This document shows, in pieces, positions 3,324 through 63,382 of a stretch of 64,000 nt of DNA. The stretch's first letter is position 1. Each line of letters starts with the position of its first letter. Position numbers and translations under genes: made by a program. The stretch is from assembly GCF_001953955.1 (NCBI RefSeq), contig NZ_CP019301.1:62001-126000 (forward strand), in the 5' to 3' direction. The DNA comes from Prevotella intermedia ATCC 25611 = DSM 20706 (lineage in GTDB: Bacteria > Bacteroidota > Bacteroidia > Bacteroidales > Bacteroidaceae). Below the pieces are notes generated by a model, which saw nothing but the letters and a program-made list of their open reading frames with translations, was not told the DNA's origin and did not search any database.

Positions 3324-3509
3324 TGTAAATATTTTTCACAAACCTATCTGCGACATAACCTCCTCACCACCAACGCCTTGCAAAACCTATTGTTTTGCAT
3401 TCCAAAAGCGGCTGTTTTGCACGGTAAAAGCGTAGGTTTTGCCATGCAAAACAGCCGCTTTCGCAACGCCAAACCAAAATTATAGTTTTTCTTACGAATT
3501 ATCTTTACA
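3324..3509 (+). repeat. Family A 186-bp intergenic repeat, copy 1
   Basis: This copy runs TGTAAATATTTTTCAC … ATCTTTACA, the reverse of most copies. The core carries AAAAGCGGCTGTTTTGC and AAAAGCGTAGGTTTTGC modules. Read from the TGTAAAGAT end its arm slots are GGCTG, CTACG, AGCCG. It lies between convergent genes, 84 bp from the end of the regulator gene. The stretch 3253-3323 just before it shows nothing else. Confidence 0.93.
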
Positions 3510-3592
3510 AAATAAGGGTGCTTTTCGGCTCTCAACGGAGCGGTTTTCGGGTTTTAATGAATAGGATTACACGCTTACTGCAACATACGGCA

Positions 3593-5203
3593 TTAGCCTA
3601 TCTTCTTTACTGCATTCTCGAACCCATCGTGGTCGATGGAACGAGCTTTCAGCTTCGAGCGATAAGTGTAAACGGTGGTAAGGCTCGCACGCAGAATGGA
3701 AGAGATGCGCGCATTGTCGGTAATGCCAAGGCGTATGAGGGCGAGAATGCGCAGCTCGGTGGTGAGCCGCTCGTCGCCTTTCGGCTCTATCTGTCCGTCG
3801 GGACGCAGCAACTGGTTCACTTCCGTTACGAAATTGGGGTATATATTCAAGAAAGCCGTGTCGAAATTGATATAATAATGGCGTGTGGCGGTCTGAATAA
3901 AATCGCTGTTTTTCAGCTCTGTATAAAGTTCTTCCATTCGCTTCTCGCGCGCCAGACGGTTGTAGAGCTTGCGCCGCTCGTCTACTCGGTCGATAAATTT
4001 CGATACCAACTCGAGGAAACGGGCTATGTATTCCTCTTTTATACTGTTGGTTTCACTTATCTGCGCATTCACCTTGCTAAGGTTTTCCACAGCTTCGTTC
4101 AGCTGATGGTTCATCACCACCACCCGTTTGTTCATTTTTCGGTAGCGTTTCAAGAGCTTCAAGATGAACAGAATAGCCACCAAAAGGGCTATTGCCACAA
4201 GGCTCACCACTGCCAGAAGTATGGTAATGCGCCTGCTTTGTGCACGTTTCTGCACCAAATAGACCGACAGAATGCGGGGCAGAATGCGCGAATTTTGACT
4301 GTTGCGCAAATGTGTGCCGTAGAAATTGGCATCTTCTATCGAAATATTCAGATACTTGTAAGCCCGCTCCACATCGCCTTTCTCGAACAAAAGCGTAGCC
4401 AAGAGGCGCAAGGAGTTGTTCTCCTTCACCGACGAGCGTATGTCTGACATCGCACTTTCGATAAGATAGAAATACTGCTTGTCGGTGTTGCCCAGCTTAC
4501 CGTACAGTCTTGCCAACTCGCTGGTTATCATTGCATACTCGTGTTCGTGCCTCTGCCACTTCTGCAGGTATTCTTTCAGCATCGCAATGGCTTCGTCGGT
4601 GTTGCCCTGCTCGCTCAAATCGTTTGCCTTCACCATGATATAGGTGCGCGTATCTTTGTACGGACTTTTCAAAATCAGCCCACTGTAATAGTCCGCCTGC
4701 TTGTCGTAATACTTATGCATCTGCGTTCCTGCGGTGAATTCAGACATAAACATCATCAGCAAAAACCACTCTTTATAATAATCCTGACGAAGACGGTCGT
4801 CTAAAACCGCCGTACTCAGAGTGTCCAAGAGTTCTCTCGACTCCAAGAAAAGTGCAGCCAGCGTGTACACATGCACTTTCTTGAGCTGCGCTTCCACAAT
4901 CCACTTCGGGTCGCCCACACGCTTTGCATACATAATGGTACGGTTGGCGTAGACCAATGCCGAGTCGAAACGGAACGCCTCGTACTCGTCGTAAAGCTGC
5001 ATACATATCTTATAGCGTTGCTTGTCGGTTAGATAAGGTGTCGAAAGGCGTTGTCGTATGTCGTTAATCTGCGATAACTTCTTGTCGGTTATCGCCTTAC
5101 GCTGTCCTATAAGATGGTCCAGCTCATCGTATTCGTTGGCTGCCATTCCCATCGAACAGTGCAACACTGCAAGAAGAAACAGCAAAAACAGCTTGCGCAT
5201 CAT
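3593..5203 (-). CDS. Membrane-anchored DUF6377-type transcriptional regulator
   Basis: A protein of about 536 residues, if started at the second Met cluster (MMRKLFLL) where a signal peptide begins; an in-frame start at 5236 would add 11 polar residues. The order is signal peptide, a helical TPR-like region (about 30-320), one membrane helix (about 325-350, ILLAVVSLVAIALLVAILFIL), a coiled-coil linker, and a C-terminal helical domain ending in a helix-turn-helix-like segment (LALIRLGITDNARISSILR, TTVYTYRSKLKAR). This is the architecture of Bacteroidetes DUF6377 regulators, which are thought to sense an extracytoplasmic cue and bind DNA on the cytoplasmic side. It has its own good promoter (5262-5292). 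Its target is unknown; nothing next to it is an obvious partner. Confidence 0.85.
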   Translation of the reverse strand: MMRKLFLLFLLAVLHCSMGMAANEYDELDHLIGQRKAITDKKLSQINDIRQRLSTPYLTDKQRYKICMQLYDEYEAFRFDSALVYANRTIMYAKRVGDPKWIVEAQLKKVHVYTLAALFLESRELLDTLSTAVLDDRLRQDYYKEWFLLMMFMSEFTAGTQMHKYYDKQADYYSGLILKSPYKDTRTYIMVKANDLSEQGNTDEAIAMLKEYLQKWQRHEHEYAMITSELARLYGKLGNTDKQYFYLIESAMSDIRSSVKENNSLRLLATLLFEKGDVERAYKYLNISIEDANFYGTHLRNSQNSRILPRILSVYLVQKRAQSRRITILLAVVSLVAIALLVAILFILKLLKRYRKMNKRVVVMNHQLNEAVENLSKVNAQISETNSIKEEYIARFLELVSKFIDRVDERRKLYNRLAREKRMEELYTELKNSDFIQTATRHYYINFDTAFLNIYPNFVTEVNQLLRPDGQIEPKGDERLTTELRILALIRLGITDNARISSILRASLTTVYTYRSKLKARSIDHDGFENAVKKIG

Positions 5204-5261
5204 TGTTTTGAATCTTTGGTTTTTCCTCTTCCACATTATATATTAAGGTGGTTCAGCCTTA

Positions 5262-5292
5262 CAAAAATAGATAAAAATATTGAAAAACCAAA
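5262..5292 (-). promoter_or_regulatory. Bacteroidetes-type promoter of the DUF6377 regulator
   Basis: On the minus strand a TTTG box (CAAA at 5289-5292 on the plus strand) is 19 nt upstream of TATTTTTG (5262-5269), matching TTTG-N19-TAnnTTTG. It lies just after the terminator of the upstream small RNA unit, so the regulator is transcribed separately. Confidence 0.75.
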
Positions 5293-5301
5293 ATTAAGGC
5301 A

Positions 5302-5485
5302 CAAAAAAAGTGCGCCATAACCTCTCGTCTTGGTGCACTTTGCGTTTAGCTAATTGTTGATTGAGAATTGATTCACCTATAATCTACAAATAGGTTCTAC
5401 AATTTAACATTACCTAAAATCACCTTTTTACCATTTTAAACGCTACATTTTACCATTGCCTCACGGCAGTCTTTTCGTTAAATCT
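5302..5485 (-). ncRNA. Candidate small RNA, about 180 nt
   Basis: A self-contained minus-strand transcription unit. A promoter -7 box TATCTTTG (5490-5497) lies upstream, and a terminator hairpin (5308-5317 with 5332-5341, a 10-bp stem with one G-U pair) followed by seven T lies downstream. The next gene has its own promoter beyond the terminator. No reading frame longer than about 10 codons starts inside it. A small hairpin, TGCC-GTGA-GGCA, with a GNRA-type loop lies near the 5' end. I do not recognise it as 6S, SRP or tmRNA. Alternatively it could be an attenuated leader of the regulator gene. Confidence 0.5.
5308..5341 (-). terminator. Terminator of the candidate small RNA
   Basis: Stem AAAGTGCGCC / GGTGCACTTT with a 14-nt loop. 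On the minus strand it is followed by a run of seven T. Confidence 0.75.
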
Positions 5486-5489
5486 GATA

Positions 5490-5520
5490 CAAAGATACTC
5501 AATAAAATCGTTGTTGCAAT
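5490..5520 (-). promoter_or_regulatory. Promoter of the candidate small RNA
   Basis: TATCTTTG (5490-5497) matches TAnnTTTG exactly. The upstream box 19 nt away is ATTG instead of TTTG. Confidence 0.55.
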
Positions 5521-5851
5521 GCCTTACAAATATAAATCTAAGTTTATCTAAAAGGTATAAAATAGCTATCTACTTGATTATCTTATAATTAAACATTTTA
5601 AAACCCCTACTTAAAATTATAAAAATCTAAATATCTTCCTAATATATCAAAGTTAAAAGGGAACAAAAACGGGTATAATGAAACAGAAATAACAGAAAAA
5701 GACAATAACGCATAAAGCAGACAAGAACAATATTTGCACTTACAAGAAATAAAAAAGTAGGAGCACTGCAGCTGCACCGTGAAGGGCAAGAACAGCATAC
5801 GTTTGTATGCCATAAAAACTATTCTGCTGAATGCAACAACCGCATTGATTT
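5521..5851. other. AT-rich non-coding stretch
   Basis: Very AT-rich. The short open frames here have no signal, domain or plausible start context. I see no RNA structure or promoter that convinces me. Confidence 0.6.
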
Positions 5852-6037
5852 TGTAAAGATAATTCTGTTAAAAAGCGGTAGTTGCGTTTTGGCGTTGCGA
5901 AAGCGTAGGTTTTGCGATGCAAAAGAGCCGCTTTTACCGTGCAAAACCTACGCTTTTGGAACGCAAAACAACAGCTTTTACATTACGTTGATAGTGAGCG
6001 AGTTACACAAAAGCCACGCTTGCGAAAAATATTTACA
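5852..6037 (-). repeat. Family A 186-bp intergenic repeat, copy 2
   Basis: Runs TGTAAAGATAATTC … AATATTTACA. The arm slots are GTAGG, GAGCCGC (one base off the usual AGCCGC arm) and CTACGC. The usual AACAATAGGTTTT segment is changed to AACAACAGCTTTT. It lies between the small RNA unit and the 3' end of the ABC operon. Confidence 0.92.
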
Positions 6038-6175
6038 TACTTTTTGGGTGTCAGAAGCATAATTATTGCCGAGCGACAGAGAACGAAAGGGCGTGCAGCC
6101 GAAGCGATGCAGAGGTTCGCTTACGTGGGTAAAATGAACACCCTGCATAGGGTTCGGCTTGCCAAGTTGCGTGTA

Positions 6176-7909
6176 TTACAGGCTGTTGCCCCTTTCCTGT
6201 TGCAGACGAACCATGCGGGCGAACTCGCCGTTGCGAGCCAACAGCTCGTCGGGCGTGCCCTGTTCGCTCACCGTACCGCCGCTAAGCACCACGATGTGGT
6301 CGGCATTGCGGACGGTGCGCATACGGTGGGCGATGATGATGACGGTTTTGTTGCGCACCAGTTCGGAGATGCCCGCTTGTATTTTCGTCTCGTTCTCGGC
6401 GTCAAGGCTTGCGGTGGCTTCGTCGAGAAGTATGATTGGGGCATTCTTCAGCAGGGCGCGGGCAATGGAAATGCGCTGCCGCTCGCCACCCGAAAGGGTT
6501 TCGCCGTTTTCGCCGATAACGGTATCGTAACCTTGCGGCATTCGACTGATGAAGTCGTCGCACTGCGCCAGTCGGGCAACGTGGCGCACTTCCTCGTCGG
6601 TAGCGTTGCGCTTGCCGATTCGGATATTGTCGGCAATAGAGGCATTGAACAGCAATACGTCTTGAAAAACAATGGAATAATGTTTCAGCAGAGTTTCGGG
6701 GTCAATCTTCGAGATGTTGTTTCCACCCACAAGAATTTGTCCTTCGGCAATGTCCCAAAAGCGTGCGGCGAGCTTGGCAGTAGTACTTTTGCCCCCACCC
6801 GACGGTCCCACGAGGGCGGTAACGGTGCCTTGGCGTGCCGTGAACGAGACATTGTGCAGCACTTGCTTCTCGGTTTCGTAGGCAAAACTTACGTTGCGGA
6901 ACTCGATGTCGTAGTTTTCGAGTTGTACGGCTGCACTTCCCTCCTGCGTGGGCATACCTTCTATTTCCTTCATACGGTTGATGCGCACATCGAGAAAGGA
7001 GAGAAGGGCAAGGTAGTTGCACACTTCGATAATGGGATTGTAGACCATTGCCGATGCCAAGAGGTAAGCCAAGTAGGTGAATACCGACACTTCGCCCTGC
7101 TGCAACAGCCACGCTCCCACCAATATAACGGTGGGCATGCCGAGTTTGAGCAGCATTCCGGCGAGGTTGAGGAAGACTCCTGCCACGAGTTCGCCACGCA
7201 CCAGCTCGTGTTCGTAGCCCTTCAGCCGCTTGTCGAAGCTGCGGCAGTATGCCTGTTCGCCACTGTACGACCTTATTTCCTGCATACATTCCAGCCCTTC
7301 CTGTATCTGTTCGGTTACGCCACGCTTCACTTTATAGTGCTGAACGAAGGCTTTGTGGAGCTGACGGCGCGACAGCAACAGTACGGTTACGGCGAGCGGA
7401 ACAACCCAAAAGAGGGCTAAAGCCAGGTGCCAGTTGTAGGAGAACATGCCCACGCCGATGATGACGACGCTCAGAGCCGACGCAAACAGCTGGGGAACAG
7501 CGTGCGAGAAGGTTTGCTCGAGCATCGTGCAGTCTTCCATCACGGTAGAGGTGAGGTCGGAAAGGTTGCGTTCGCCGAAGAAAGCGAGGGGCAGTCGGCG
7601 CAGTTTTTCCGCCACTCCGATGCGGCGTTGCGCACTCTCGTTGTAGACGGTGGTGTAGGTGCTGTCGTACTGTCGGAGGGCTATGAAGAACATAAACACT
7701 GCCAAGAGCACTGCCACAAGCACATAGAACCACAGCGTGTGCGGCTCGGTGGAGGTCTTGGCGTCGATGTGTTCCATGAGGAAGAAGAACAAATAGGTGG
7801 GCGGCAGCATCAATGCGAGGTTCATCAATGTAGAGAAGGCGATGCCTTTCCGCAAGTCTTTCGCTCCTTTTTCGGTGAGGGCGAACCGTTGTTGAAGATA
7901 TTTTATCAT
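6176..7909 (-). CDS. ABC exporter, fused permease/ATPase, second half of a pair
   Basis: A 577-residue half-transporter: six-helix membrane domain (about 20-310) followed by a complete ATPase domain with Walker A GPSGGGKS (368-375), signature LSGGERQR, Walker B IILLDEATA and the switch histidine (IIAHR). It is 24 nt downstream of a second half-transporter in the same direction, so the two probably form a heterodimeric exporter in the inner membrane. The tetR gene upstream suggests induction by the exported compound. The pairing is reminiscent of YbtP/YbtQ- or IrtA/IrtB-like transporters, but the substrate cannot be read from the sequence. Both ATPase sites look intact. Confidence 0.92.
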   Translation of the reverse strand: MIKYLQQRFALTEKGAKDLRKGIAFSTLMNLALMLPPTYLFFFLMEHIDAKTSTEPHTLWFYVLVAVLLAVFMFFIALRQYDSTYTTVYNESAQRRIGVAEKLRRLPLAFFGERNLSDLTSTVMEDCTMLEQTFSHAVPQLFASALSVVIIGVGMFSYNWHLALALFWVVPLAVTVLLLSRRQLHKAFVQHYKVKRGVTEQIQEGLECMQEIRSYSGEQAYCRSFDKRLKGYEHELVRGELVAGVFLNLAGMLLKLGMPTVILVGAWLLQQGEVSVFTYLAYLLASAMVYNPIIEVCNYLALLSFLDVRINRMKEIEGMPTQEGSAAVQLENYDIEFRNVSFAYETEKQVLHNVSFTARQGTVTALVGPSGGGKSTTAKLAARFWDIAEGQILVGGNNISKIDPETLLKHYSIVFQDVLLFNASIADNIRIGKRNATDEEVRHVARLAQCDDFISRMPQGYDTVIGENGETLSGGERQRISIARALLKNAPIILLDEATASLDAENETKIQAGISELVRNKTVIIIAHRMRTVRNADHIVVLSGGTVSEQGTPDELLARNGEFARMVRLQQERGNSL

Positions 7910-7934
7910 TGTCTTGTGTCCTTTCTGTTTAGGT

Positions 7935-9689
7935 TTATAGTTTCCATGCCACCGACTTTTGGTATTCGTTCCACATCTTATAATATAATGTGGCTTGCTC
8001 CATGAGCTGTTGGTGCGTGCCCTGTTCGGCTATTCTGCCCTTGTCCACCACGACAATGTTGTCGGCATCTTGCACGGTGGTCAGTCGGTGGGCTATCATG
8101 AGCACGGTTTTTCCGCAAGTCAGGTGGGCAAATGCCTGCCTGATAAGGTGCTCGTTTTCGGGGTCGGCAAAGGCAGTAGCCTCGTCGAGCACCACGATGG
8201 GCGCATCTTTCAGAATGGCACGGGCAAGCACTATGCGCTGTTGTTCGCCGCCAGAGAGGTATGTTCCCTCCGCTCCTATCACGGTGTTCAGTCCCTGTGG
8301 CAGCCGCTTGATGATTTCCCGACTCTGCGAGAGGTCTACGGCACGGTTCACCTGCTCGATGGTTGCATCGGGATTGCCGTAGCGTATGTTCTCCAAAATG
8401 GAGGTCTTGAACAGTCGGGTATTCTGAAACACGAACGACACGTTGCGCATCAGCATTGCCTTATCCATGTGCCGAACGTCCACACCGCCTATTCTCAAAC
8501 TGCCTTCGCGCACGTCCCAGAAGCGTGGAATGAGCCTTGCGATGGTTGTCTTGCCGCTTCCAGACGCTCCAACCAACGCAACGGTCTTGCCTTGCGGTAT
8601 GTCGAGGTCGATGTGGCTTACGGCATCGCGCTCCGCCGCTTCGTATCGGAACGACACATTGCGCAGACTGACGTTGAAGACTGTCGCTTTCTCGGGCTTG
8701 GAACTCTCTGGAAGCGGTGGCGTGGCGGTGAGTTTCTCCAATCGGTCTACTGCTTCGTTTGCCAGAAAGAGGTTCTGACTGAGGTGCATGGCTTTCATTA
8801 CGTTGGCTGCAATGATGGGTGCGATGAGCACATACAGCACCATATCGGAAACGATGATGGCAGTTTCGCCGCCGTGCCCTATCAGTATGATGCCCGTAGG
8901 CACAAGCAGAAAGGCGAAAGCATTGATGGCTATGGTGTAGGCAGACATGGGCGTGCGCCACAGAAGGGTGTACCTGATGACGAGGTCGCGGTAGTTGATG
9001 ATGCTGTCGTGAAAGCGTTTGAACGAGAACACCGTCTGTTGGAAGACCTTCACGACGGGTATTCCGCGCACGTATTCCACGGCTTCGGCACTCATTTTCT
9101 CCTGTGCGTCGAGGTACATACGCTGGAAATCGTTGTTCTTAGGGTTCATCATGTAGCCCATGATGCCGAAGGCGCACACTATCGGTACCATTGCGGCAAT
9201 GCCCAACTGCCAGTCTACGGCAAGCAGAAGCACTATAATGCCTATCGGAGCCACCACGCTGCCTGCCACATCGGGCAGTATGTGTGCCACGAAAGTGTGG
9301 GTCTGGCTCGAATCTTCGTCTATTATCTTGCGCATGCGCCCCGTGTTCTGCGTGTCGAAAAAGCCCAACGGAACCCGCATCAGCCGTTCCATGGCAGTGC
9401 GCCGCATATTGGTTTCGATGCGGAAAGCGGAAAGATGCGAGAGCATGAGGGCGGCGAAATAGAGCAAAACATTCGCCACCGACACCACGAACGCCGCAAT
9501 GGCATAGTCCCATACGGGCGTATCGGCAAGGTTTCCGTCGGCAGTGAGCAGCGTGCGCACCACCAACCACAGGAAAATAAAGGGTACGAGCGACAGCAGT
9601 CCGTTCACTGCCGACAGCACAACCGAGCAGGGCAGCAACGGCTTGCGCCCTCCCATGTAACGTCCTAAGCGTTTCAGTATTCTTATCAT
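7935..9689 (-). CDS. ABC exporter, fused permease/ATPase, first half of a pair
   Basis: A 584-residue half-transporter. The membrane domain spans about residues 15-310; the ATPase domain has Walker A GASGSGKT (374-381), a Q-loop at 422, signature LSGGEQQR (478-485), Walker B VVLDEATAF (499-507) and MIAHRLT. The signature and Walker motifs are canonical, so it should hydrolyse ATP. It sits between tetR (32 nt upstream) and the second half-transporter (24 nt downstream) in one leftward operon. The position after Walker B reads FADPEN in place of the usual SLDxEN, a small deviation in the D-loop that some heterodimeric exporters show. Substrate unknown; drug, peptide or siderophore export/import are all possible. 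Confidence 0.92.
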   Translation of the reverse strand: MIRILKRLGRYMGGRKPLLPCSVVLSAVNGLLSLVPFIFLWLVVRTLLTADGNLADTPVWDYAIAAFVVSVANVLLYFAALMLSHLSAFRIETNMRRTAMERLMRVPLGFFDTQNTGRMRKIIDEDSSQTHTFVAHILPDVAGSVVAPIGIIVLLLAVDWQLGIAAMVPIVCAFGIMGYMMNPKNNDFQRMYLDAQEKMSAEAVEYVRGIPVVKVFQQTVFSFKRFHDSIINYRDLVIRYTLLWRTPMSAYTIAINAFAFLLVPTGIILIGHGGETAIIVSDMVLYVLIAPIIAANVMKAMHLSQNLFLANEAVDRLEKLTATPPLPESSKPEKATVFNVSLRNVSFRYEAAERDAVSHIDLDIPQGKTVALVGASGSGKTTIARLIPRFWDVREGSLRIGGVDVRHMDKAMLMRNVSFVFQNTRLFKTSILENIRYGNPDATIEQVNRAVDLSQSREIIKRLPQGLNTVIGAEGTYLSGGEQQRIVLARAILKDAPIVVLDEATAFADPENEHLIRQAFAHLTCGKTVLMIAHRLTTVQDADNIVVVDKGRIAEQGTHQQLMEQATLYYKMWNEYQKSVAWKL

Positions 9690-10531: not shown

Positions 10532-10532
10532 A

Positions 10533-11638: not shown

Positions 11639-12441
11639 ATGCTCTTCTTGACTACCTATCTCCCTAAGAATTTTAAAGCGGACGAGTGCAACATTATGCA
11701 AGAAGGCTCTGAATGCTTGGAAGTTACGTATTCCCACCCTAACTTCACTCTTGGAAACCAATTCAAGGGAATAATGAAAAAGAAAGCAGATGCAGGCAAT
11801 ATAGACAGCAGGAGAAATCTTCATCGAAAGAGGAGTCCCTCCAAGAACGCAGAGATAGAAAACTATCTCTCCACACACTACGATTTTAGATACAATACAA
11901 TATTGGGTAGAACCGAATATTGCAGTAAGGGTAATAATCGTTTTGTAAAAGTCGGTCGCTATGAAATCAATACGTTTCGCAGGGAACTTGATTGCGATGA
12001 AAGCATAGCGACTTCTGCCGAGAACCTTTATTCCATCATCGAGAGCAGCTTCTCTCCCCGTATCAATCCCGTGCAGGAGTATTTCAAAGAGTTGCCACTG
12101 ATAGATATAGGCGATGGTAGTAGTTACAGTGGTAGTAGTGTTCCTATTTCCTTTTCACCAAAAGCAATTCCCAATTTGGCAAGTTGCGTGGTCGTCCGTA
12201 ATTCTAACAAGTGGTTGCCGTATCTTACCAAGTGGCTTGTGGCGGTGGTCGCCAACGCAATTGACGACCGCGAGTGCCGTAACCATACCTGTCTTGTACT
12301 GACAGGTGAGCAGGGTAAGTTCAAGACAACGTTTCTCGATTTACTTTGTCCACCCAAACTGCACGGTTACAGCTATACGGGCAAGATATATCCACAAGAG
12401 AAGGACACACTCACTTATATCGGTCAGAACCTTATCGTAAA
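11639..12441 (+). pseudogene. VirE-domain protein, 5' part, interrupted by an IS
   Basis: The N-terminal two thirds of a virulence-associated-E-type P-loop ATPase of mobile elements. CLVLTGEQGKFKTTFLDLL is the Walker A-like motif and NRFVKVGRYEINTFRRELD is also family-typical as I recall it. The better start may be the ATG at 11774 (AAGGGA six bases upstream), giving MKKKADAGN. The frame runs into an IS982-type element at 12442; only seven codons later a stop encoded in the IS ends it. The 3' part resumes after the IS in a frame that joins perfectly when one target-site copy is removed (…QNLIV-NIDDQL…). The family is linked with replication modules of mobile elements. Confidence 0.85.
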
Positions 12442-13464
12442 CGTGAGTTCGATATAAGAAAGTTGTTTTAAAAGTTGTAGGAGTGGAATATTTTTTGTAC
12501 CTTTATACTTGTAAACCAAAGAGTTACAAACAAATACCCACTCCTATGACTGATACAAATTTAATAGAAATATTCTGTATATTCGACGATTTTTGCAAGT
12601 ATTTTACTCCAGAGTTGAAAAAACATACGCTTCAGGTACCCGGCAAGCGGCACCGTAACCGTGTTTCCCGTATGTCAGACAGTGAAATCATGACCATTCT
12701 GGTCCTGTTCCACACTCACCGCTTCCGAGACCTCAAGTCCTTCTACTTAGGCTATATCTGCCAGCATATGCGTGGAGACTTCCCACATCGGATTTCCTAC
12801 AACCGCTTCGTCGAGCGACAAGCACAGGTCGCACTGCACCTGTTGCTGTTTCTCCAGACATGTGCACTGGGCAAGTGTTCAGGCATATCCATCATTGATT
12901 CCACACCACTGGCTTCCTGCCACATCAAGCGTGAGCGGCAGCACAGGACCATGAGGGGCTGGGCGGCAAAGGGAAAGTGCACCATGGGCTGGTTCTACGG
13001 CTTCAAGCTACATCTTGTCATCAATGACAAGGGAGAGATTATCCAGTGGAAGCTCACGCCAGGAAACGTAGATGACAGGGAGCCACTGAAGGACAAACGC
13101 TTCACCGAGAGGTTGTTTGGGAAACTCTTCGCAGACAGGGGGTATATCAGTCAGAACCTCTTTGAGATGCTCTTTGTGGACAATATACATTTAGTGACAA
13201 AGATAAAGAAGAACATGAAGAACTCCCTGATGAGCCTGTATGATAAGTTGTTGCTCAGAAAGCGTTCTGTGATAGAGACGGTGAACGATGAACTGAAGAA
13301 TGTATGTCAGATAGAACACACCAGACATCGCTCTTTTGATAACTTTGCAACAAATCTGATAGCAGGACTCATTGCATACAATCTGTTGCCAAAGAAGCCA
13401 GAAATGAACATAGAAATAATTGATAAAAGCAGAATAATTGCATAGAGCTTATATCGAACTCACG
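12442..13464 (+). mobile_element. IS982-family insertion sequence
   Basis: A 1023-bp element with 17-bp perfect terminal inverted repeats (CGTGAGTTCGATATAAG) and one transposase gene. The flanks carry TTATCGTAAA at 12432-12441 and 13465-13474, a target duplication of up to 10 bp (8 or 6 if one or two more bases are counted into the ends). It disrupts the virE-like gene. The undamaged ends and open transposase indicate a recent insertion. Confidence 0.93.
12546..13445 (+). CDS. IS982-family transposase
   Basis: A 299-residue DDE transposase started at the ATG of MTDTNLIEIF; an upstream GTG in frame at 12483 is less likely because it lies close to the IS end. The family is shown by SDSEIMTILVLFHTHRFRDL near the N-terminus, IIDSTPLASCH with the first catalytic Asp, the LFADRGYIS stretch with the second Asp, and the C-terminal RSVIETVNDELKN with the Glu. 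All three catalytic positions look intact, so it may be active. Relatives occur in Porphyromonas and Prevotella (for example IS195, from memory). Confidence 0.92.
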   Translation: MTDTNLIEIFCIFDDFCKYFTPELKKHTLQVPGKRHRNRVSRMSDSEIMTILVLFHTHRFRDLKSFYLGYICQHMRGDFPHRISYNRFVERQAQVALHLLLFLQTCALGKCSGISIIDSTPLASCHIKRERQHRTMRGWAAKGKCTMGWFYGFKLHLVINDKGEIIQWKLTPGNVDDREPLKDKRFTERLFGKLFADRGYISQNLFEMLFVDNIHLVTKIKKNMKNSLMSLYDKLLLRKRSVIETVNDELKNVCQIEHTRHRSFDNFATNLIAGLIAYNLLPKKPEMNIEIIDKSRIIA

Positions 13465-27817: not shown

Positions 27818-27894
27818 GCTCCCTTGCATAGCCTTGCCTACACTCCCCGCAGCTGCTATCCACGTACCCCATTTCGCCTAATCATAGCCGTGAA

Positions 27895-28088
27895 ATATCT
27901 TTACAGAAAATCAATACTTTTTCTTCCGTTTTCCAAAAGCGTAGGTTTTGCGCTGCAAAACAGCCGCTTTTACCTTGCAAAACCTACGCTTTTGGAATGC
28001 GAAACAATAGGTTTTGGAACGCCAAAGAGTAGTTGTTGATTATCAGTGAGTTACAAGTGATAAAATAAAACACTGTTTGTAAAGATAT
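27895..28088 (-). repeat. Family A repeat, 194-bp subtype, copy 3
   Basis: Bounded by perfect 11-bp inverted ends ATATCTTTACA / TGTAAAGATAT. The core has arm slots GTAGG, AGCCGC, CTACGC and the fixed AACAATAGGTTTTG part. It belongs to a 375-bp block (27861-28235) repeated at 30431-30807 in the same orientation. Confidence 0.92.
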
Positions 28089-28130
28089 TTTACAACACCA
28101 ACAGGGACGGCAAATGATATTTCAGAAGGG

Positions 28131-28235
28131 GTAGAGGCGTGATTCATCACGTTCCTGAAACCAAATGCAGCAAGCCGATAGCTACTGAAAGAAGTCGCTT
28201 TCTTTGTATAAAAATGTGATAAACCACGCTCCAAC
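28131..28235. repeat. Family B repeat next to copy 3
   Basis: GTAGAGGCGTGATTCATCAC … GTGATAAACCACGCTCCAAC, with the shared inner AAACCAAATGCAGCAAGCC. It forms the second half of the direct-repeat block before the HagA-like gene. Confidence 0.82.
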
Positions 28236-28278
28236 GCTGCCCGAATACCCGACATAAATAAAAATATATTACGAAATG

Positions 28279-28310
28279 TTTGGCATTAAGAGATAAAAAC
28301 GTTATATTTG
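28279..28310 (+). promoter_or_regulatory. Promoter of the HagA-like adhesin
   Basis: TTTG (28279-28282) - 20 nt - TATATTTG (28303-28310), a full consensus match, 120 nt before the start codon. Confidence 0.8.
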
Positions 28311-28429
28311 CGAAAGTAAATGGTAATAACTAAGAATATAAAACATAGTCTGATTAACTTAATTAAACGCCCACGTCTCTGAAACGGCGTTGCTCTTGAA
28401 AGGAGTTTTAATGGGGAGGCACTACTACA

Positions 28430-30265
28430 ATGAAACCACATTTACTAAAGAACGTGTATGCTACTATGGCTGCACTGTTCATCGCAATGTTTGCGTTGCC
28501 CACTACGGCGCAGGCACAAGGTACGGCAAGAATTATTCTCGAGGCACACGATGTATGGAAAGATGGCAGCGGCTACCAGTTGTTGCTCGATGCCGACCAC
28601 AATCTTTATGGCGACAAGATTCCTGTCGGAGGACCGCTATGGAAAGACGCCAACCCACCTGCCGACCTCTACGATGGCTTCGAATACAAGATTCCAGCCA
28701 ATGCCGACCCCTCTACGAAACCTCAATATATGGTTGTAGACGGCGAGGATTTTGTGGATATTCCTGCAGGAATCTACGATTTCTGCATCGCAGCACCGCA
28801 GGCTGATAAGAAAATATGGATTGCAGGAGATAGCGATGCACCCACAAGAGACAACGATTACAAGTTCGAAGCGGGCAAGACCTACCGCTTTGCTATGTAT
28901 AAAAGCACGCAGGACGAGAACGATGCGGCAAAACTGACGATTACCGAAAGCGGAAACGTTACAACCTATAAGCTATGGATTGGCGGCACGCAGGTTACCT
29001 CAGACAACTGCAGCGACCTTCCCCACACGAGCGGAACGGTGAGTTACGACCCACCGACCAGAATGCTTACACTCGACAATGCCACCATTAACGCATCTGA
29101 CGGAAGCGAGGGTATCTGGTCGAAGATTGACGGACTGACTATCTTCATCAAGGGAACCACTTCCATTACCACCAATGGTGCCGCTGCAATCAAGACCGAA
29201 GCATCGCATTGTACCATCGGTGGCGGCGAAAAACTCAAGCTGTCGGGAAAGAATTTCGGACTGAATGCTGCATCGAATGCCTTTGTAACCATCGTTGATT
29301 GCGACATCGAATGCGACGGCTCTTTCGGTAACGACAAGAACGATGCCGATATAACCATCAGAAACTCTAAGATAACGGCAAAGGGAAAAGGCTCGCCAAG
29401 TGTCTACGGCATTCAGAAACTCACCCTCGAAGCCTGTGGCATAGCACAGCCCGAAGGTGCCGTCTACGACCCAGCACTATTCGGTATCGCCCTCAACGGA
29501 CAGTTGGTAACAGACAAGGTGGTTATCAAGACGATAGAGAACTACGACCTTGAAATAGCAAACACAAAGGTAACTGCCACCAACTGTGGCGACCTCTCTG
29601 TGATTAACGGTGTAAGTGGAACGGTGAACTACGACCCAACGAACAAGGTTCTTACGTTGCAGAATGCTGCAATTGTTACAGAAAACGACAACGCAATCTT
29701 GTCGAATATCGATGATTTGACCATTAAGTGCATCGGCAACAATAGTCTGTCGGCACAGAAAGCAGCCCTTACCTTTAGAAATTCGCTGACCATTAAGGGC
29801 GGAGGAACACTTGATGTAGAGAGCCAGAAAGATTGTGCTGTCTTTGTAAACGGAGGCAATCTCACCATCGACAACTGCACCGTGAACGCCAAGAGCAAGA
29901 TGTACGGTATCTCTGGAAACAACGGCGAGAACGAAATTCTTGCTGTCAAGAATGCTACGGTAACGGCAGAAGGAACCGAAAGAGGCTCTGTCGTGGACTT
30001 TGCCACACTCGAATTGACAGGTTGCAGCATCACTCAGCCTATGGGAGCTAAGTTCGACCCAATGAAGCATTGCATTGTTTTGAATGGTGAGAAGGTAAAA
30101 ACCAAGGTGGTAATTACAACCCCAACTGCCATTGAAGCCCCAACTGCCGACACCGCAGCTACACAAGGCATCTACACCCTTAACGGTATCCGTCTGTCGG
30201 GCGAACGAAAAGACTTGCCAAAAGGTGTTTACATCGTGAACGGCAAGAAGGTTGTGAAGCTGTAA
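28430..30265 (+). CDS. HagA/gingipain-type adhesin with sorting motif
   Basis: A 611-residue secreted protein with a signal peptide (ending TTAQAQG). Residues about 25-170 (ARIILEAHDVWKDGSGYQLL … IPAGIYDFCIAAP … FEAGKTYRFAMYK) closely resemble the DUF2436 module of Porphyromonas gingivalis gingipains and HagA as I remember them. Two homologous beta-helix-like units of about 190 residues follow, each opening with a TxxNCxDL … SGTVxYDP … LTLxNA pattern. The C-terminus (LNGIRLSGERKDLPKGVYIV) is a type IX-like sorting domain. It is probably displayed on the cell surface for haemagglutination or matrix binding. The gene has its own promoter and terminator and is bracketed by direct repeats of about 375 bp. 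Confidence 0.88.
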   Translation: MKPHLLKNVYATMAALFIAMFALPTTAQAQGTARIILEAHDVWKDGSGYQLLLDADHNLYGDKIPVGGPLWKDANPPADLYDGFEYKIPANADPSTKPQYMVVDGEDFVDIPAGIYDFCIAAPQADKKIWIAGDSDAPTRDNDYKFEAGKTYRFAMYKSTQDENDAAKLTITESGNVTTYKLWIGGTQVTSDNCSDLPHTSGTVSYDPPTRMLTLDNATINASDGSEGIWSKIDGLTIFIKGTTSITTNGAAAIKTEASHCTIGGGEKLKLSGKNFGLNAASNAFVTIVDCDIECDGSFGNDKNDADITIRNSKITAKGKGSPSVYGIQKLTLEACGIAQPEGAVYDPALFGIALNGQLVTDKVVIKTIENYDLEIANTKVTATNCGDLSVINGVSGTVNYDPTNKVLTLQNAAIVTENDNAILSNIDDLTIKCIGNNSLSAQKAALTFRNSLTIKGGGTLDVESQKDCAVFVNGGNLTIDNCTVNAKSKMYGISGNNGENEILAVKNATVTAEGTERGSVVDFATLELTGCSITQPMGAKFDPMKHCIVLNGEKVKTKVVITTPTAIEAPTADTAATQGIYTLNGIRLSGERKDLPKGVYIVNGKKVVKL

Positions 30266-30360
30266 AATAGGCTCGCAGGTGTGCATAAAGTATCTTGCAG
30301 ATATGCAATGCACTGCTTTCCTGCACCCTTTCGGATTAAATATTAAGTATTGAAAACAAT

Positions 30361-30397
30361 AGTAGGAGCGTGAGCAATTTGCGCTCCTACTTTTTTT
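30361..30397 (+). terminator. Terminator of the HagA-like gene
   Basis: 10-bp stem AGTAGGAGCG / CGCTCCTACT followed by seven T. The stem resembles the end of a family B repeat. Confidence 0.88.
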
Positions 30398-30464
30398 GTG
30401 CGGTCGTCTCGCCCCGCCACAGATACATTCCACACGCCCTATTTCGCCTTACCACAACCACGAA

Positions 30465-30658
30465 ATATCTTTACAGAAAATCGGGTGTTTTTCTTCGGTT
30501 TTCTAAAAGCGGCTGTTTCGCATCGCAAAACAGCCGCTTTTACCTTGCAAAACCTACGCTTTTGCAATGCGAAACAATAGGTTTTGGAACGTCAAAGCGT
30601 AGTTATTGATAATCAATGAGTTATGAGTAGTAAGATAAAACAATATTTGTAAAGATAT
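30465..30658 (-). repeat. Family A repeat, 194-bp subtype, copy 4
   Basis: Same 11-bp ends as copy 3 (ATATCTTTACA / TGTAAAGATAT). The arm slots are GGCTG, AGCCGC, CTACGC. It lies between the convergent HagA-like and DKNYY genes. Confidence 0.92.
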
Positions 30659-33866: not shown

Positions 33867-34052
33867 TGTAAATATTTTTCATAAGCGCATCTATTGCGTA
33901 ACTATCTCGTTATCAATGTGTTGTAAAACCTATTGTTTTGCGTTCCAAAAGCGTAGGTTTTGCACGGTAAAAGCGGCTCTTTTGGAACGCAAAACAGCCG
34001 CTTTCGCAATGCCAAAGCGAAATTATCGTTTTCTTATTGATTTATCTTTACA
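33867..34052 (+). repeat. Family A 186-bp intergenic repeat, copy 5
   Basis: Runs TGTAAATATTTTTCAT … ATCTTTACA. Read from the other end its arm slots are GGCTG, GAGCCGC (one base off) and CTACGC. It lies between the divergent PCMD and RhuM genes. The flanking stretches 33713-33866 and 34053-34201 show nothing else. Confidence 0.92.
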
Positions 34053-40920: not shown

Positions 40921-41106
40921 TGTAAAGATAATTCCAACGAAAAACGGTAATTTCGGTTTGGCATTGCGAAAGCGGCTGTTTTGTAGCGCAAAACCTACGC
41001 TTTTACCGTGCAAAACAGCCGCTTTTGGAACGCAAAACAATAGGTTTTGCAATGCGCTGATAATTAGGTTGTTATGTAATAGTTGTGCTTGTGAAAAATA
41101 TTTACA
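40921..41106 (-). repeat. Family A 186-bp intergenic repeat, copy 6
   Basis: TGTAAAGATAATTCC … AATATTTACA. Arm slots GGCTG, CTACGC, AGCCGC. It lies upstream of the first choice-of-anchor J adhesin and is part of a region duplicated at 45089. Confidence 0.93.
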
Positions 41107-45088: not shown

Positions 45089-45274
45089 TGTAAAGATTAT
45101 TCCGACGAAAAACGATAATTTCGATTTGACACTGCGAAAGCGGCTGTTTTGCATTGTAAAACAGCCGCTTTTACCGTGCAAAACCTACGCTTTTGGAACG
45201 CAAAACAATAGGTTTTGCAACACGCTGATAACAAGATAGTTATACGATTGATGCGCTTGTGAAAAATATTTACA
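45089..45274 (-). repeat. Family A 186-bp intergenic repeat, copy 7
   Basis: TGTAAAGATTATTCC … AATATTTACA. Arm slots GGCTG, AGCCGC, CTACGC. It begins the region that duplicates the 5' region of the first J adhesin. Confidence 0.93.
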
Positions 45275-53241: not shown

Positions 53242-53428
53242 TTGTAAAGATAATTCTTACGAAAAACGGCAATTTCGATTTGGCGTTGCGAAAGCGTAGG
53301 TTTTGCAACGCAAAACAGCCGCTTTTACCGTGCAAAACCTACGCTTTTGGAATGCAAAACAATAGGTTTTGCAAGTCGTTTGTAATGAGGTTGTTATACA
53401 ATAACTGTATCTGTGAAGAATATTTACA
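53242..53428 (-). repeat. Family A intergenic repeat, copy 8 (187 bp)
   Basis: TGTAAAGATAATTCT … AATATTTACA. Arm slots GTAGG, AGCCGC, CTACGC. A family B fragment (TTATCACGTTCCTAATACC) lies just before, at about 53135-53153. Confidence 0.92.
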
Positions 53429-57236: not shown

Positions 57237-57299
57237 ACTTTAGCTTTGTTTTCTTAAAATTTATATTTATGGTGGTTTTTAAAAGGGTGTTGAGGCTTT

Positions 57300-59999: not shown

Positions 60000-60118
60000 A
60001 GCCTGTTTGTGGGTTATGCAGACAAAAGTACGAAAAAGAAAAGAGATAGCCGAACAATGGTAGGAAAAAGTATTTGGGGTGGGAGAGCGGTTACGCAACG
60101 AAGGCAAGCGTCGCCTTG

Positions 60119-60150
60119 TAGAAACGTGATGCAGCACGTTTCTAACACTA
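60119..60150. repeat. Family B fragment with hairpin
   Basis: GTAGAAACGTGATGCAGCAC…TTTCTAACA; the pair GAAACGTG / CACGTTTC is perfect. Confidence 0.55.
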
Positions 60151-60201
60151 AGTTTGGTTGCCTTATCAGTGGAAAGGTGCGACAAATTGCAGCAATAAAA
60201 G

Positions 60202-60387
60202 TGTAAATATTTTTTATAAGTATAAGTGTTGTATAACTATCTTGTTATCAACGCTTTGCAAAACCTATTGTTTTGCATTCCAAAAGCGGCTGTTTTGCAC
60301 GGTAAAAGCGTATGTTTTGCGTTGCAAAAGAGGCACTTTCGCAATGCCAAATCGAAATTAGCGTTTTTCTTTGGAATAATCTTTACA
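60202..60387 (+). repeat. Family A 186-bp intergenic repeat, copy 9
   Basis: TGTAAATATTTTTTAT … ATCTTTACA. Read from the other end its arm slots are GTGCCTC (a decayed GGCTG), ATACGC (a one-base variant of CTACGC) and AGCCGC. It lies between the helicase start and the prolyl oligopeptidase end. Confidence 0.9.
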
Positions 60388-60806
60388 AAAGCAAAGTGAT
60401 TTTTCAATTTTAAACTAGAAGCCCTAGTGAATTATAGAAGAACTAGAATTTACTATAAATACCCTCTAAAACACACCCTTCGCCCCATCTATACGAAAAG
60501 CGTTATACCGCTATATAAAACGCTGCAATCTAAACTTGGGCAAGGCAAATACAAACTGTGTGTTATCGTGCACAGCCATAAAGTGAGAAAAAAGCATCGA
60601 AAAGATTTGGTGCAACGAATATTTCTGCATACCTTTGCTCCCGTTATCCTGAAAACAATCTTTTTTACCTTAAATTCACTAATACCTATTGAAGATTTGG
60701 AGCGGTAGCCTGAGAGGGGTCATCGCTTTTTTTTGCCCCATATAAACATTGTTTACACACCAGACATACACCCCACGCAAGGCTTTCCACGTGCCAGTCC
60801 ATAAGC
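60388..60806. other. Non-coding stretch
   Basis: AT-rich, with a 93-codon frame (60427-60708) that shows no signal, domain or start context and is rejected as a gene. Nothing else visible. Confidence 0.5.
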
Positions 60807-60893
60807 GTAAGGGTGCAACTTATCAGATTCCTAATACCTAACAATGCAAGGCAATAGATACAAGAAAGGGACGTGAAAAATCACGTCCCTAAT
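60807..60893 (-). repeat. Family B repeat doubling as terminator of the prolyl oligopeptidase gene
   Basis: It holds the perfect hairpin GGGACGTGA-AAAA-TCACGTCCC (60869-60890), 61 nt after the stop on the minus strand and followed there by TTTCTTG. The same stem occurs at 38930-38951. Confidence 0.7.
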
Positions 60894-60951
60894 GCTTTGA
60901 GGCAATGTTTATGGCGTTTTGCCTCTATGTTTCCTGCTGTTCGCAGGGCTG

Positions 60952-63057
60952 TTATTTAAACTTCATACCTAAGTGTTTCATAATGAAACCGTAGATGTCG
61001 GCTTGTTCTTCCAACTGTTTTGCCAATGGTTTGCCGCTGCCGTGTCCTGCCTTGCTGTCGATACGAATGAGGACAGGAGCTGTGCCAGCCTGACAATCTT
61101 GCAAGGTTGCTGCGAATTTGAACGAGTGTGCGGGCACCACACGGTCGTCGTGGTCGGCTGTTGTTACGAGTGTTGCAGGGTAGCTTACACCTTTCTTCAG
61201 GTTGTGCAGGGGCGAATAAGAGTACAGATATTCGAACATTTCCCTGCTGTCTTCGCTTGTGCCGTAGTCGGGAGCCCAGTTCCAGCCGATGGTAAACTTA
61301 TGATAGCGCAGCATATCCATTACGCCGACTTGCGGAATGCAGACTTTGAAGAGGTCGGGGCGTTGCGTCATACAAGCACCAACGAGGAGTCCGCCGTTGC
61401 TGCCGCCCATAATGGCGATGTGGTCTTTGCTTGTAAAGTTGTTCGTAATGAGCCATTCGGCAGACGAAATAAAGTCGTCGAACACGTTTTGCTTTTGCAT
61501 TTTTGTGCCTGCAACGTGCCATTCTTCGCCATATTCGCTACCGCCACGCAGGTTTACCTGTGCGTAGATACCACCATTTTCGAGGAATGGTATGCGCATT
61601 GACGAGAAACTTGGAGGCAACGACACGTTGAAACCACCGTAACCATAGATGAGCACGGGGTTCTTGCCGTTTCGCTTCAAGTCCTTCTTGTAGGTAAGGA
61701 ACATCGGAACACGTGTTCCGTCCTTGCTGGTAACGAACACTTGCTGCGTGGTATATTTGTCGAGGTCGAACTTAATCTTCGGTGCAGTGTAGACGGTGCT
61801 CTTGTTTTCGGCAATGTCGTACTGGTAAATGGTGCCTGGAACGGTGAACGAAGAGAAGCTGTAGAAACATTCTTTCTGTCCACGCTTGCTGTTTACGTAA
61901 GCACGTCCTACGGTAGGAAGCGTTATTTCGTTGAGTTCCTTGCCGTCAATCGAGTAGACATAGAGGTGTGTGGAAGCGTCTTGGCTGTAAGTAAGTATGA
62001 GTTTGTCGTCGGCAAACTGCACGTCTTCGAGCACGCTCTTGCTTTCGGCGATGAGCTCTTTCCAGTCTTTAAAGCCTGGCTTGTGTATGTTGGCAACCAT
62101 TACACGGCCACGTGGCGCACCGTCGTTGGTGAGCAAATAGATGTTGTCGCCGATGGTTTCGATGGGGCTGTACTGCAAATCCATATTGGAAGTCATCTGT
62201 ATGAACTGCGAGTTTGGCACACGAAGGTCGCGCACGTATAGGTTCATACCCGAGCCTGCACCGCTCTCATTGAGGAACATCATGGTTTCGTCCTCGTTCA
62301 GCGACACCGAGTAGAAGCGCAGTGGGTGGGCTGGATTCTGATAGAACAATACGTCGTCGCTCTGTTTCGTGCCTATCTTGTGGTAGTAAACCTTGTGCAC
62401 TTCGTTCTTTGAACTGAACTCCTTGCCCTTTTCGGGAGCATCGTAGGCACTGTAAAAGAAGCCGTTGCCGCACCATTGCGCGCCGCCAAACTTCGCCCAT
62501 TCTATATGGTCGGACAGCAGTTCGCCCGTTGCAACGTCCTTCACGTATATTTCCTGCCAGTCGCTGCCACTGCGCGAGATGACGTAAGCCATATATCTGC
62601 CGTCTTTAGAGAAGCTCGTGTTCTGCAGTGCCACGGTGCCGTCGTCGCTCAGCTTGTTAGGGTCGAGAAACTCGTTGAGCTGTCCTCCCAACTCGTCCAT
62701 TTGGTAAAGAACACTCTGGTTTTGCAGTCCGTTGTTCTTATACACATACCATTTGCCATTCTTGTTGAACGGTGTGCCCACCTTTTCAAAGTCTGCCACC
62801 TCCTTCAAGCGTTTCAAGAGCTTGGCACGGAAGGGTATTTTCGCCAAATAAGCGTTGGTTACTTTGTTTTCAGCCTCTACCCACGCCATGGTTTCTTGGC
62901 TTCGGTCGGCTTCCAAAGGGCGGTAAGGGTCGGGCACTTTCACACCGAAGTATGTGTCCACAGTGCCGTCTTTCGGTGCCTGCGGATAGACAATGTTCTG
63001 TGCTGTCATTGTTGTTGCTGTCAGCGCAAGTGCCGACAATGCGATAAACTTTCTCAT
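60952..63057 (-). CDS. Prolyl oligopeptidase (S9A)
   Basis: A 701-residue serine peptidase with a signal peptide (MRKFIALSALALTATTMTAQ), so it is probably periplasmic. An N-terminal S9 beta-propeller (about 70-420) is followed by an alpha/beta-hydrolase domain with the catalytic triad: Ser in GGSNGGLLVGA (about 550), Asp in DDRVVPAHS (about 639) and His in GHGSGKP (about 673). It cleaves short peptides after proline, complementing the other peptidases of the window. All catalytic residues are present. It forms a single-gene unit with a hairpin terminator. Confidence 0.94.
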   Translation of the reverse strand: MRKFIALSALALTATTMTAQNIVYPQAPKDGTVDTYFGVKVPDPYRPLEADRSQETMAWVEAENKVTNAYLAKIPFRAKLLKRLKEVADFEKVGTPFNKNGKWYVYKNNGLQNQSVLYQMDELGGQLNEFLDPNKLSDDGTVALQNTSFSKDGRYMAYVISRSGSDWQEIYVKDVATGELLSDHIEWAKFGGAQWCGNGFFYSAYDAPEKGKEFSSKNEVHKVYYHKIGTKQSDDVLFYQNPAHPLRFYSVSLNEDETMMFLNESGAGSGMNLYVRDLRVPNSQFIQMTSNMDLQYSPIETIGDNIYLLTNDGAPRGRVMVANIHKPGFKDWKELIAESKSVLEDVQFADDKLILTYSQDASTHLYVYSIDGKELNEITLPTVGRAYVNSKRGQKECFYSFSSFTVPGTIYQYDIAENKSTVYTAPKIKFDLDKYTTQQVFVTSKDGTRVPMFLTYKKDLKRNGKNPVLIYGYGGFNVSLPPSFSSMRIPFLENGGIYAQVNLRGGSEYGEEWHVAGTKMQKQNVFDDFISSAEWLITNNFTSKDHIAIMGGSNGGLLVGACMTQRPDLFKVCIPQVGVMDMLRYHKFTIGWNWAPDYGTSEDSREMFEYLYSYSPLHNLKKGVSYPATLVTTADHDDRVVPAHSFKFAATLQDCQAGTAPVLIRIDSKAGHGSGKPLAKQLEEQADIYGFIMKHLGMKFK

Positions 63058-63196
63058 TCTGTTGTTAGGTTTATGTTATTCCAATATTTTATTTGCCACA
63101 AAGATACTAATATTTTTTGTATTTCTAAATTCACAACAAGTATTATTATGCAGATAATTTTCGTCCTTTTGATTTTCTGTTTGTCTTGCTCGATAT

Positions 63197-63382
63197 TGTA
63201 AAGATAATTCCGTTAAAAAGTGGCAATTGCGTTTTGGCATTGCGAAAGCGGCTGTTTTGCATCGCAAAACAGCCGCTTTTACCTTGTAAAACCTACGCTT
63301 TTGGAATGCAAAACAATAGGTTTTGTAATGTGTTGATGGATAAGTAGTTAGGCGACAGTTGCGCTTGTGAAAAATATTTACA
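63197..63382 (-). repeat. Family A 186-bp intergenic repeat, copy 10
   Basis: TGTAAAGATAATTCC … AATATTTACA. Arm slots GGCTG, AGCCGC, CTACGC. Slots 1 and 2 make a perfect 13-bp stem (GCGGCTGTTTTGC … GCAAAACAGCCGC) with a 3-nt loop. Confidence 0.93.

Follow-up and report, generated by a model that had tools for sequence, protein, structure and literature searches.

Slot patterns and turnover of core blocks in the PINSR repeats of Prevotella intermedia, and related hairpins in other Prevotella

ERIC, RUP and similar enterobacterial and pneumococcal repeats are long imperfect intergenic palindromes of 100-200 bp, and PINSR, the Prevotella intermedia/nigrescens repeat that is the subject of this study, resembles them. 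Ten of its copies lie in a 64,000-bp stretch of P. intermedia ATCC 25611 = DSM 20706 (contig NZ_CP019301.1, positions 62,001 to 126,000; hereafter the window), within the 708-kb contig, the smaller of the two that make up the 2.67-Mb genome. PINSR was named in 2015 and described as a 188-bp intergenic repeat that two strains of P. intermedia carry 177 and 184 times, found also in P. nigrescens, P. falsenii and P. disiens and downstream of tnaA (Naito et al., 2015; PMC4755523). The text of that paper leaves the function and source of the repeat open and argues that it is not a miniature inverted-repeat transposable element (MITE) (PMC4755523).

Repetitive extragenic palindromes (REPs) and the bacterial interspersed mosaic elements (BIMEs) built from them (GTAG and CGTC repeats; PMC3733652), in an account whose main text does not contain the word Prevotella, share with PINSR short high-copy palindromes, mosaic arrays and a position between genes. 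They differ from it in their GTAG/CGTC tag, in place of which inspection of alignments shows conserved hairpin flanks TTRCAAAA and TTTT; moreover, PINSR cores vary within one element, and no RAYT gene accompanies them in this genome or in G017, a genome that is probably P. falsenii (6 of its 11 copies are identical to falsenii copies). The BrickBuilt minisatellite MITE of Porphyromonas gingivalis is likewise a repeat of the oral Bacteroidales with tandem units of 22-23 nt, but its 23-nt unit AGAYCATARTATCCTCTCRTRTG and its ends, which resemble those of insertion sequences (IS), are unlike the PINSR unit GCAAAA-N7-TTTTGC as far as its published description goes (PMC4596501). What is added here, and was found neither in the literature searched nor in Rfam, is the logic by which the variable cores of PINSR are arranged, evidence against descent as its source, and a wider family of related hairpins.

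Structure and census of the repeat

All ten window copies were found where a sequence-only reading of the window had put them, and all lie between called genes (gene calls throughout come from our own scoring of open reading frames, ORFs). Canonical copies run TGTAAAGATAATTC ... GAAAAATATTTACA. Their interior consists of four 22-bp units of the form GCAAAA-N7-TTTTGC, and the seven-base cores, which occupy element positions 52-58, 74-80, 96-102 and 118-124, are referred to as slots 1 to 4; the slot 1 unit has the opposite sense to those of slots 2 and 3. The earlier reading had assigned the cores of slots 1 to 3 to two alternatives, P (GCGGCTG/CAGCCGC) or T (GCGTAGG/CCTACGC), and its patterns were reproduced for every copy. 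PTP copies lie at 3324..3509 (minus strand, between convergent genes), 40921..41106 (plus) and, nominally, 60202..60387 (minus), where the arms have decayed (slot 1 GTGCCTC); TPT copies at 5852..6037 (plus) and 53243..53428 (plus, between convergent genes); and PPT copies at 33867..34052 (minus, between divergent genes), 45089..45274 (plus) and 63197..63382 (plus). In the copy at 40921 the slot 1 core, GCGGCTG (P), lies at 40972..40978 on the plus strand and slots 2, 3 and 4 follow in 22-bp steps at 40994-41000, 41016-41022 and 41038-41044. Two variants of 194 bp, both on the plus strand, share the middle of the canonical copies and have other ends: a TPT copy at 27895..28088 (ends ATATCTTTACA...TGTAAAGATAT; profile match 27888-28085) and a PPT copy at 30465..30658 (profile match 30458-30655). 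The reported lengths hold for the two variants; the remaining eight copies are 186 bp in register, the one read as 187 bp from 53242 becoming 186 bp from 53243. The two variants (27895-30658) flank a DUF2436 gene at 28430-30265 with their TGTAAAGATAT ends outward and with similar flanks, and a third copy of the 194-bp type was seen at locus L189.

The inverted ends TGTAAA…TTTACA that had been reported are present as an imperfect 14-bp inverted repeat, TGTAAAGATAATTC / TGTAAATATTTTTC, in canonical copies; the 194-bp variants end differently. Among 186-bp copies (108 from this genome and 96 from P. falsenii and G017), conservation is high along the element and fades over about 15 bp beyond the left end and about 25 bp beyond the right, so that the ends are not sharp.

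The repeat is PINSR. It shares with the published family its intergenic, non-coding character, a length near 188 bp, high copy number, presence in P. falsenii and P. nigrescens and the tnaA copy (PMC4755523), and it was identified by length, intergenic location, copy number, species and the tnaA copy. That last copy is a full 186-bp match at 1075-1260 of locus L322, 231 bp behind an ORF end at 1492; the ORF matches the tnaA model with 527 bits, below the curated cut-off of 825.8. Named relatives carrying the repeat are P. falsenii, P. aurantiaca and P. nigrescens. The novelty that the sequence-only reading had allowed the repeat itself is lost to this published family, as that reading had itself foreseen for a described repeat, and a literature search combining PINSR and Prevotella returned no description besides PMC4755523. 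The text of that paper mentions neither terminal inverted repeats nor a slot structure, whereas imperfect inverted ends and four slots are seen here; it also reports PCR to be negative in other Prevotella clades, while relatives were found here across the genus (PMC4755523).

The slot 4 motif, with up to two mismatches, occurs at 132 + 128 (260) sites on the two strands of the P. intermedia genome and the reversed control at 2 + 3, and a 186-bp query gave at least 39 further full-length matches at 85-91% identity when 40 of 287 first-look candidates were scored; together these counts exclude chance. Length is 186 bp in 108 of 110 end-to-end matches in this genome, and none of the 108 copies lies within a called gene. 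A pattern requiring exact ends had no match and was left out of the counts. An Rfam scan of the window gave no match at the gathering cut-off, and the motif was not found in a phage collection. In a viral collection it occurred in one contig alone (IMG/VR contig 2825927844, L127), as one full 186-bp copy; this contig may be bacterial sequence or the edge of a prophage. The sample analyzed below comprises 120 unique copies from fetched stretches, of about 260 sites, drawn from exact slot 4 matches (100 of 260) and from the 30 loci nearest to one PTP query, and that query alone supplied ten PTP copies among the 108 full ones; among the 96 falsenii and G017 rows up to 6 are possibly counted twice. 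Two copies, at G000:C2:31231-31416 and C2:701091-701276 (L023 and L020), near opposite contig ends, are identical together with their printed flanks, which reflects a duplication or an assembly overlap.

Some copies adjoin other repeated or mobile DNA. Truncated copies abut an apparent integrative-element end at L181 (~2944-3128), L200 (~4911-5096) and L321 (3965-4069), and in an annotated P. nigrescens case two tandem site-specific integrases lie beside a truncated PINSR. G178, a genome with a single pattern match, has a half copy beside DNA 77% identical to that at L181 and 84% identical to that at L200. An integrative element may use PINSR or its immediate surroundings as an insertion point and transfer pieces between species. 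In P. falsenii several PINSR copies (L047, L052, L116 and others) sit inside a longer repeat, with TTTTTAAGCAAGT...GATGAAACAGTGAG upstream and AATAACGTGAGTTCGGTGTAAGAATTTGAAG downstream.

Slot patterns and the turnover of cores

The three slot patterns of the window dominate genome-wide. Tabulation of the 108 copies of 186 bp gave 70 PTP, 19 PPT, 14 TPT, 2 PPP, 1 TTT and 2 untyped; PTT, TPP and TTP were absent, with 19.0, 3.6 and 7.2 expected if slots were independent. Slot 1 matches at least one of slots 2 and 3 in all 106 typed copies (expected 83.1) and exactly one of them in 103 (expected 59.5, maximum 77 in 5000 shuffles), or in 93 of 96 once the ten copies found by the PTP query alone are removed. 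The sequence-only reading had stated that slots 2 and 3 always differ, which nearly holds (103/106, the exceptions being PPP and TTT), and that slot 1 always has exactly one partner, which with a two-letter alphabet is the same statement and not a separate finding. What is separate is the missing TTP: slot 1 is T in none of 70 copies with T,P in slots 2 and 3, versus 14 of 33 with P,T. As for the pairing rule, the swapping of arm blocks and the keeping of a partner by slot 1 hold beyond chance and descent, but the rule is looser in P. falsenii. There and in G017 a third core, t (CCGTAGG/CCTACGG), is common, and exactly one exact match occurs in 69 of the 90 typed copies among 96 (expected 48.6, maximum 62); with t counted as T, some match is present in 85 (expected 74.2, maximum 83). 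Deletion of identical slots as the cause of the rule is unsupported, no full-length copy shorter by 22 bp (164 bp) having been found in this genome; P. falsenii has three. Separately, a three-unit array in P. nigrescens (L199, ~12352-12537) carries a different core, GGCACTG/CAGTGCC, which hints that still more core types exist.

Folding, which covered natural copies alone, paired slots 1 and 3 of the plus strand in 67 of 67 PTP copies of this genome, and slots 1 and 2 together with 3 and 4 in 15 of 19 PPT copies. Ten slots hold a whole core that has been inverted or moved from slot 4, as at L048, where the slot 4 core sits in slot 2.

Slot class is almost free of the sequence around it. Mutual information between slot class and the left haplotype about 20 bp away was 0.000, 0.005 and 0.010 for slots 1, 2 and 3 (107 copies, not significant), and that between the p/P base beside the P core in slots 1 and 3 was 0.011 (p = 0.37, n = 71). 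Between slots it was 0.728 (2-3), 0.270 (1-3) and 0.196 (1-2), values reached in none of 2000 shuffles of the same 107 copies. Three of 14 variable columns (65, 67 and 88) were nominally linked to slot class (p = 0.01-0.02).

Comparison of orthologous intergenic regions of P. intermedia and P. falsenii showed that slots change at the same locus. Twenty rows share flanks, of which 18 are trusted; L116/L131 is distrusted because the P. intermedia site appears unoccupied at another place in that falsenii locus, and L123/L191 because it is a weak match to a P. intermedia copy already paired with L047. Across the 18 trusted rows orientation is conserved, at least one slot differs in 17 (for example L153/L070, PPT versus TTt), and exactly one match is kept in 17 P. 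intermedia and 13 falsenii copies. Slot 1 itself differs in 11 of the rows, and in nine of these the falsenii slot 1 still has a partner. One copy, L086, has a private compensated core, TCGGCTG, and in the same-locus pair L178/L046 the segment between slots 1 and 3 is inverted. Over all 20 rows, identity outside the core region is 0.818 for orthologs versus 0.733 for non-orthologs, while inside it orthologs are hardly closer (0.876 versus 0.863); the outer parts keep a memory of their locus and the core region does not. Because slot class is unlinked to nearby sequence, slots 2 and 3 are locked to each other and cores change at orthologous sites, descent from founders is largely refuted as the source of the pattern.

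Related hairpins in Prevotella and their genomic placement

A pattern with AAA, TTTTGC, GCAAAA and TTTT fixed, both N7 cores free and no pairing condition matched 29 of 299 Prevotella genomes, with none or a single match for the control in nearly all; in one genome, G210, control matches outnumber true ones. A stricter pattern that required TTTTGC at the outer end was confined to P. intermedia ATCC 25611 (1 of 251 genomes). Setting aside this genome, G017 and G178, 75 hairpins listed from 21 of the 26 other matching genomes have 60 distinct left cores, and 25 of them have perfectly complementary cores, with 1.0 expected when arms are dealt across genomes; within genomes with at least three hairpins the figure is 22 of 58 versus 8.1 expected. 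In many of the loci read, a module TAAC-N-YTTGATA-N-CAACG-N-TTRCAAAA lies beside the hairpin, at nearly the same spacing as on the PINSR minus strand behind slot 4.

A model, R1, was built from eight hairpins taken from four other species of Prevotella, and it recovers every one of the ten copies in the window. Its full-length match to the copy at 40921 (41012..41078, minus strand) takes in the module TAAC-N-TATCAACG-N-TTGCAAAA and then the slot 4 and slot 3 units, and all eight canonical copies match in this one register (element positions 92-158 on the element's minus strand; 23.4-36.8 bits, E 1e-5 to 0.009), the others at 3352-3418 (plus), 5943-6009 (minus), 33895-33961 (plus), 45180-45246 (minus), 53334-53400 (minus), 60230-60296 (plus) and 63288-63354 (minus). 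The 194-bp variants match in other registers, at 27935-28018 and 30549-30627 (both minus; E 2.4e-5 and 0.042). Among 198 Prevotella genomes of at least 90% completeness, 32 have R1 matches at E <= 1e-4, the present genome being one of them; G004, G069, G094, G081 and G288 gave more than 100 matches each when 150 candidates per genome were scored, numbers in which some hairpins, read on both strands, are counted twice. Outside the genus single weak matches occurred in 5 of 118 genomes of the order. In the model-aligned set from other species, two-sided changes are seen at 14 of 16 stem positions, though such sets lean toward paired stems and many of their hairpins are read on both strands. Rfam gave no match on the element at 20 loci of the simple form; one of these loci has a 6S-like RNA (L237, 1881-2069), with the element at 1501-1567. 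The two forms are alike in module, unit and spacing, a likeness seen directly in the sequences. PINSR appears to represent, in the P. intermedia lineage, a form with four units, and the simple elements of other Prevotella one with two units, made up of the module and a single hairpin.

PINSR copies in P. intermedia (107) lie 45 times between convergent genes, 33 and 16 times in the two tandem arrangements and 13 times between divergent genes, with one further copy undecided; the falsenii figures are 33, 30 and 19, and 19, with 19 undecided. For convergent genes these comparisons take their background from the surroundings of the copies and not from the genome at large. In other species the simple elements (79 top hits, eight of which do not have both neighbors) stand 27 times between convergent genes, 31 times in sense and nine times in antisense tandem positions and four times between divergent genes, which makes 31 of 40 tandem cases sense, and their module side lies a median of 27 bp behind the stop codon (58 gene ends). 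A separate T-rich terminator within 300 nt was found at none of 59 sense, 4 of 27 antisense and 2 of 49 element-free ends; for replacement of a terminator by the element, sense compared with element-free ends gives p = 0.20.

Proposed explanations for the matching of slots

Our leading reading, held at about even odds, makes PINSR an intergenic element of the REP/BIME kind whose foldable hairpin array is kept while its letters turn over, and the persistence of such an array is the part with the best support. Observed directly are the likeness of the two forms, the swapping of blocks within single loci, the locked pairing and the location. On this reading the element would consist of a conserved flank module and an array of 22-bp units whose seven-base cores may be replaced as long as the strand can fold back on itself. 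Two processes would probably move the cores, template switching from one inverted unit to another during replication and the exchange of cores among copies; the former is proposed because of the loop inversion and the few one-sided steps, the latter because the core region loses its locus memory. Copies whose slot 1 has no partner would be removed by selection on folded DNA or RNA, which is preferred because pure homogenization should yield PPP and TTT, and these are rare. The sequence-only reading had named selection on the fold and recombination within the palindromes as possible causes; both have evidence. As for function, the folded element may act as a two-way barrier behind gene ends, and not as a regulatory RNA, either as a back-up terminator or as a block to read-through and supercoiling between convergent genes. 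This suggestion is favored because it best accounts at once for simple elements placed in sense and for PINSR placed between convergent genes, yet we rate it below even odds, and a site on the DNA for gyrase or a nucleoid protein is rated only slightly lower. More speculative is a genus-wide version, in which gene-end hairpins carry an exchangeable stem cassette and complementarity alone is policed; PINSR would then be its four-unit version with two alternative folds, neighboring hairpins (1:2 and 3:4) or a long-range 1:3 pairing with 2:4 as a possible knot, and the cores would set the fold of each copy, so that some 260 copies would each be fixed in one state.

A number of observations weigh against the reading of PINSR as an array kept for its fold. 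Exactly one match is lacking in 21 of the 90 typed copies of P. falsenii and G017, and with t counted as T the exactly-one effect shrinks there to 37 versus 31.4 expected. Slot class needs 30 changes on a tree of the outer columns, itself poorly resolved, versus 33.6 ± 1.5 when shuffled (10 of 300 as low), so that a little inheritance of class remains. Of the rare base changes that fall in slot 1 or in the slot that pairs best with it, 14 were uncompensated and two, both in one copy, compensated (there are 35 uncompensated slot cases in all, 11 of them in partnerless slots), and 46 of 107 stems of this genome have a mismatch at base pair 58. G-U pairs are not in excess over A-C mismatches on the plus strand (8 v 9 in P. 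intermedia, 5 v 11 in falsenii and G017), which leaves no sign of an RNA, and only a minority of tandem PINSR copies (35 of 98) present as sense the strand that is sense in the simple elements. From the uncompensated changes and the mismatches at pair 58 it follows that block identity is guarded more than perfect pairing, a result that template switching with exchange of whole cores explains no less well than does selection on individual bases. Finally, gene 3' ends frequently have a terminator of their own before PINSR (55 of 125 in P. intermedia and 26 of 86 in P. falsenii, with 0 of 125 and 0 of 86 under a plain mononucleotide shuffle; ends at least 50 bp from a copy were counted, 8 and 5 shorter ones being set aside), and the element would thus often lie outside transcripts.

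The rest of the terminator evidence can be read beside that count. Separate terminators stand at 6 of 67 gene 5' ends in P. intermedia and 7 of 71 in P. falsenii. Rates are similar in convergent gaps with and without the element (36/86 v 7/12 and 15/52 v 20/52) and higher with it in tandem gaps (21/45 v 16/86 and 16/45 v 16/112), where the element-free gaps may sit inside operons. PINSR itself passes an intrinsic terminator test on the plus strand in 2 of 100 P. intermedia and 2 of 81 falsenii copies and on the minus strand in none of either (0/100 and 0/81); with so many 3' ends already terminated before the copy, the suggestion that the repeat is a mobile terminator is not borne out.

Whether any function is needed may be doubted. 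Template switching yields arm homogenization and spacer inversion according to one account (PMC8604942), and another states that it can create and fix stems (PMC8794818); mutation alone might then match the arms, homogenizing them and flipping the loop, with exchange between copies spreading the result. This account without function is a tentative one. In its favor are the inversion between L046 and L178 and the ten slots, that of L048 among them, with whole inverted or displaced cores; the near absence of one-sided core steps in the other-species set, which was selected for pairing, points the same way. Repeated homogenization, however, should end in PPP or TTT, seen in only three of the 106 typed copies, and the lack of full-length 164-bp copies in P. 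intermedia and the mostly uncorrected base changes in paired slots also speak against it. Amplification of three founders, PTP, PPT and TPT, with the pattern due to descent alone, is very improbable. It would account for the concentration of copies in three classes, for the absence of TTP, which should pair equally well, and for the weak class signal on the outer tree, but not for classes that are unlinked to the left haplotype or the p/P base and that change at the same locus between species.

Movement as a MITE in trans, by an IS transposase that recognizes the TGTAAA ends, is scarcely more probable. The inverted ends, the constant length and differences between P. intermedia and P. falsenii in occupancy at some sites are what such movement would leave, but no clean empty site with a target duplication appeared at the five sites examined, conservation runs past both ends, and Naito et al. 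argue against a MITE (PMC4755523). The REP-type transposase whose presence had been suggested for checking was likewise missing: a search for Y1 (RAYT) transposases, with other transposase families outside it, found none in this genome or in G017. Among 12 other Prevotella genomes Y1_Tnp was present in five of eight with pattern hairpins and in two of the other four. E. coli BIMEs offer a model for another possibility, that the element is a site on the DNA at which gyrase or a nucleoid protein would bind, acting through hairpin extrusion or phased 22-bp sites and not as RNA. We regard such a site as possible without favoring it: the many copies between convergent genes, the position beyond terminators, the lack of wobble asymmetry and the 22-bp phasing are all consistent with it, while the simple elements, with their preference for sense placement, speak for RNA in the species that have them.

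Taken as a whole, the slot logic and the linkage test give PINSR a testable principle, namely that block complementarity is kept and not sequence. The wider family, which in several species of Prevotella offers separate hairpins by the dozen within a genome, connects the repeat of an oral pathogen with hairpins at gene ends elsewhere in Prevotella and yields a model for annotating them. It also makes for an unusual data set in which selection on the fold may be separated from template-switch mutation in the evolution of stems.

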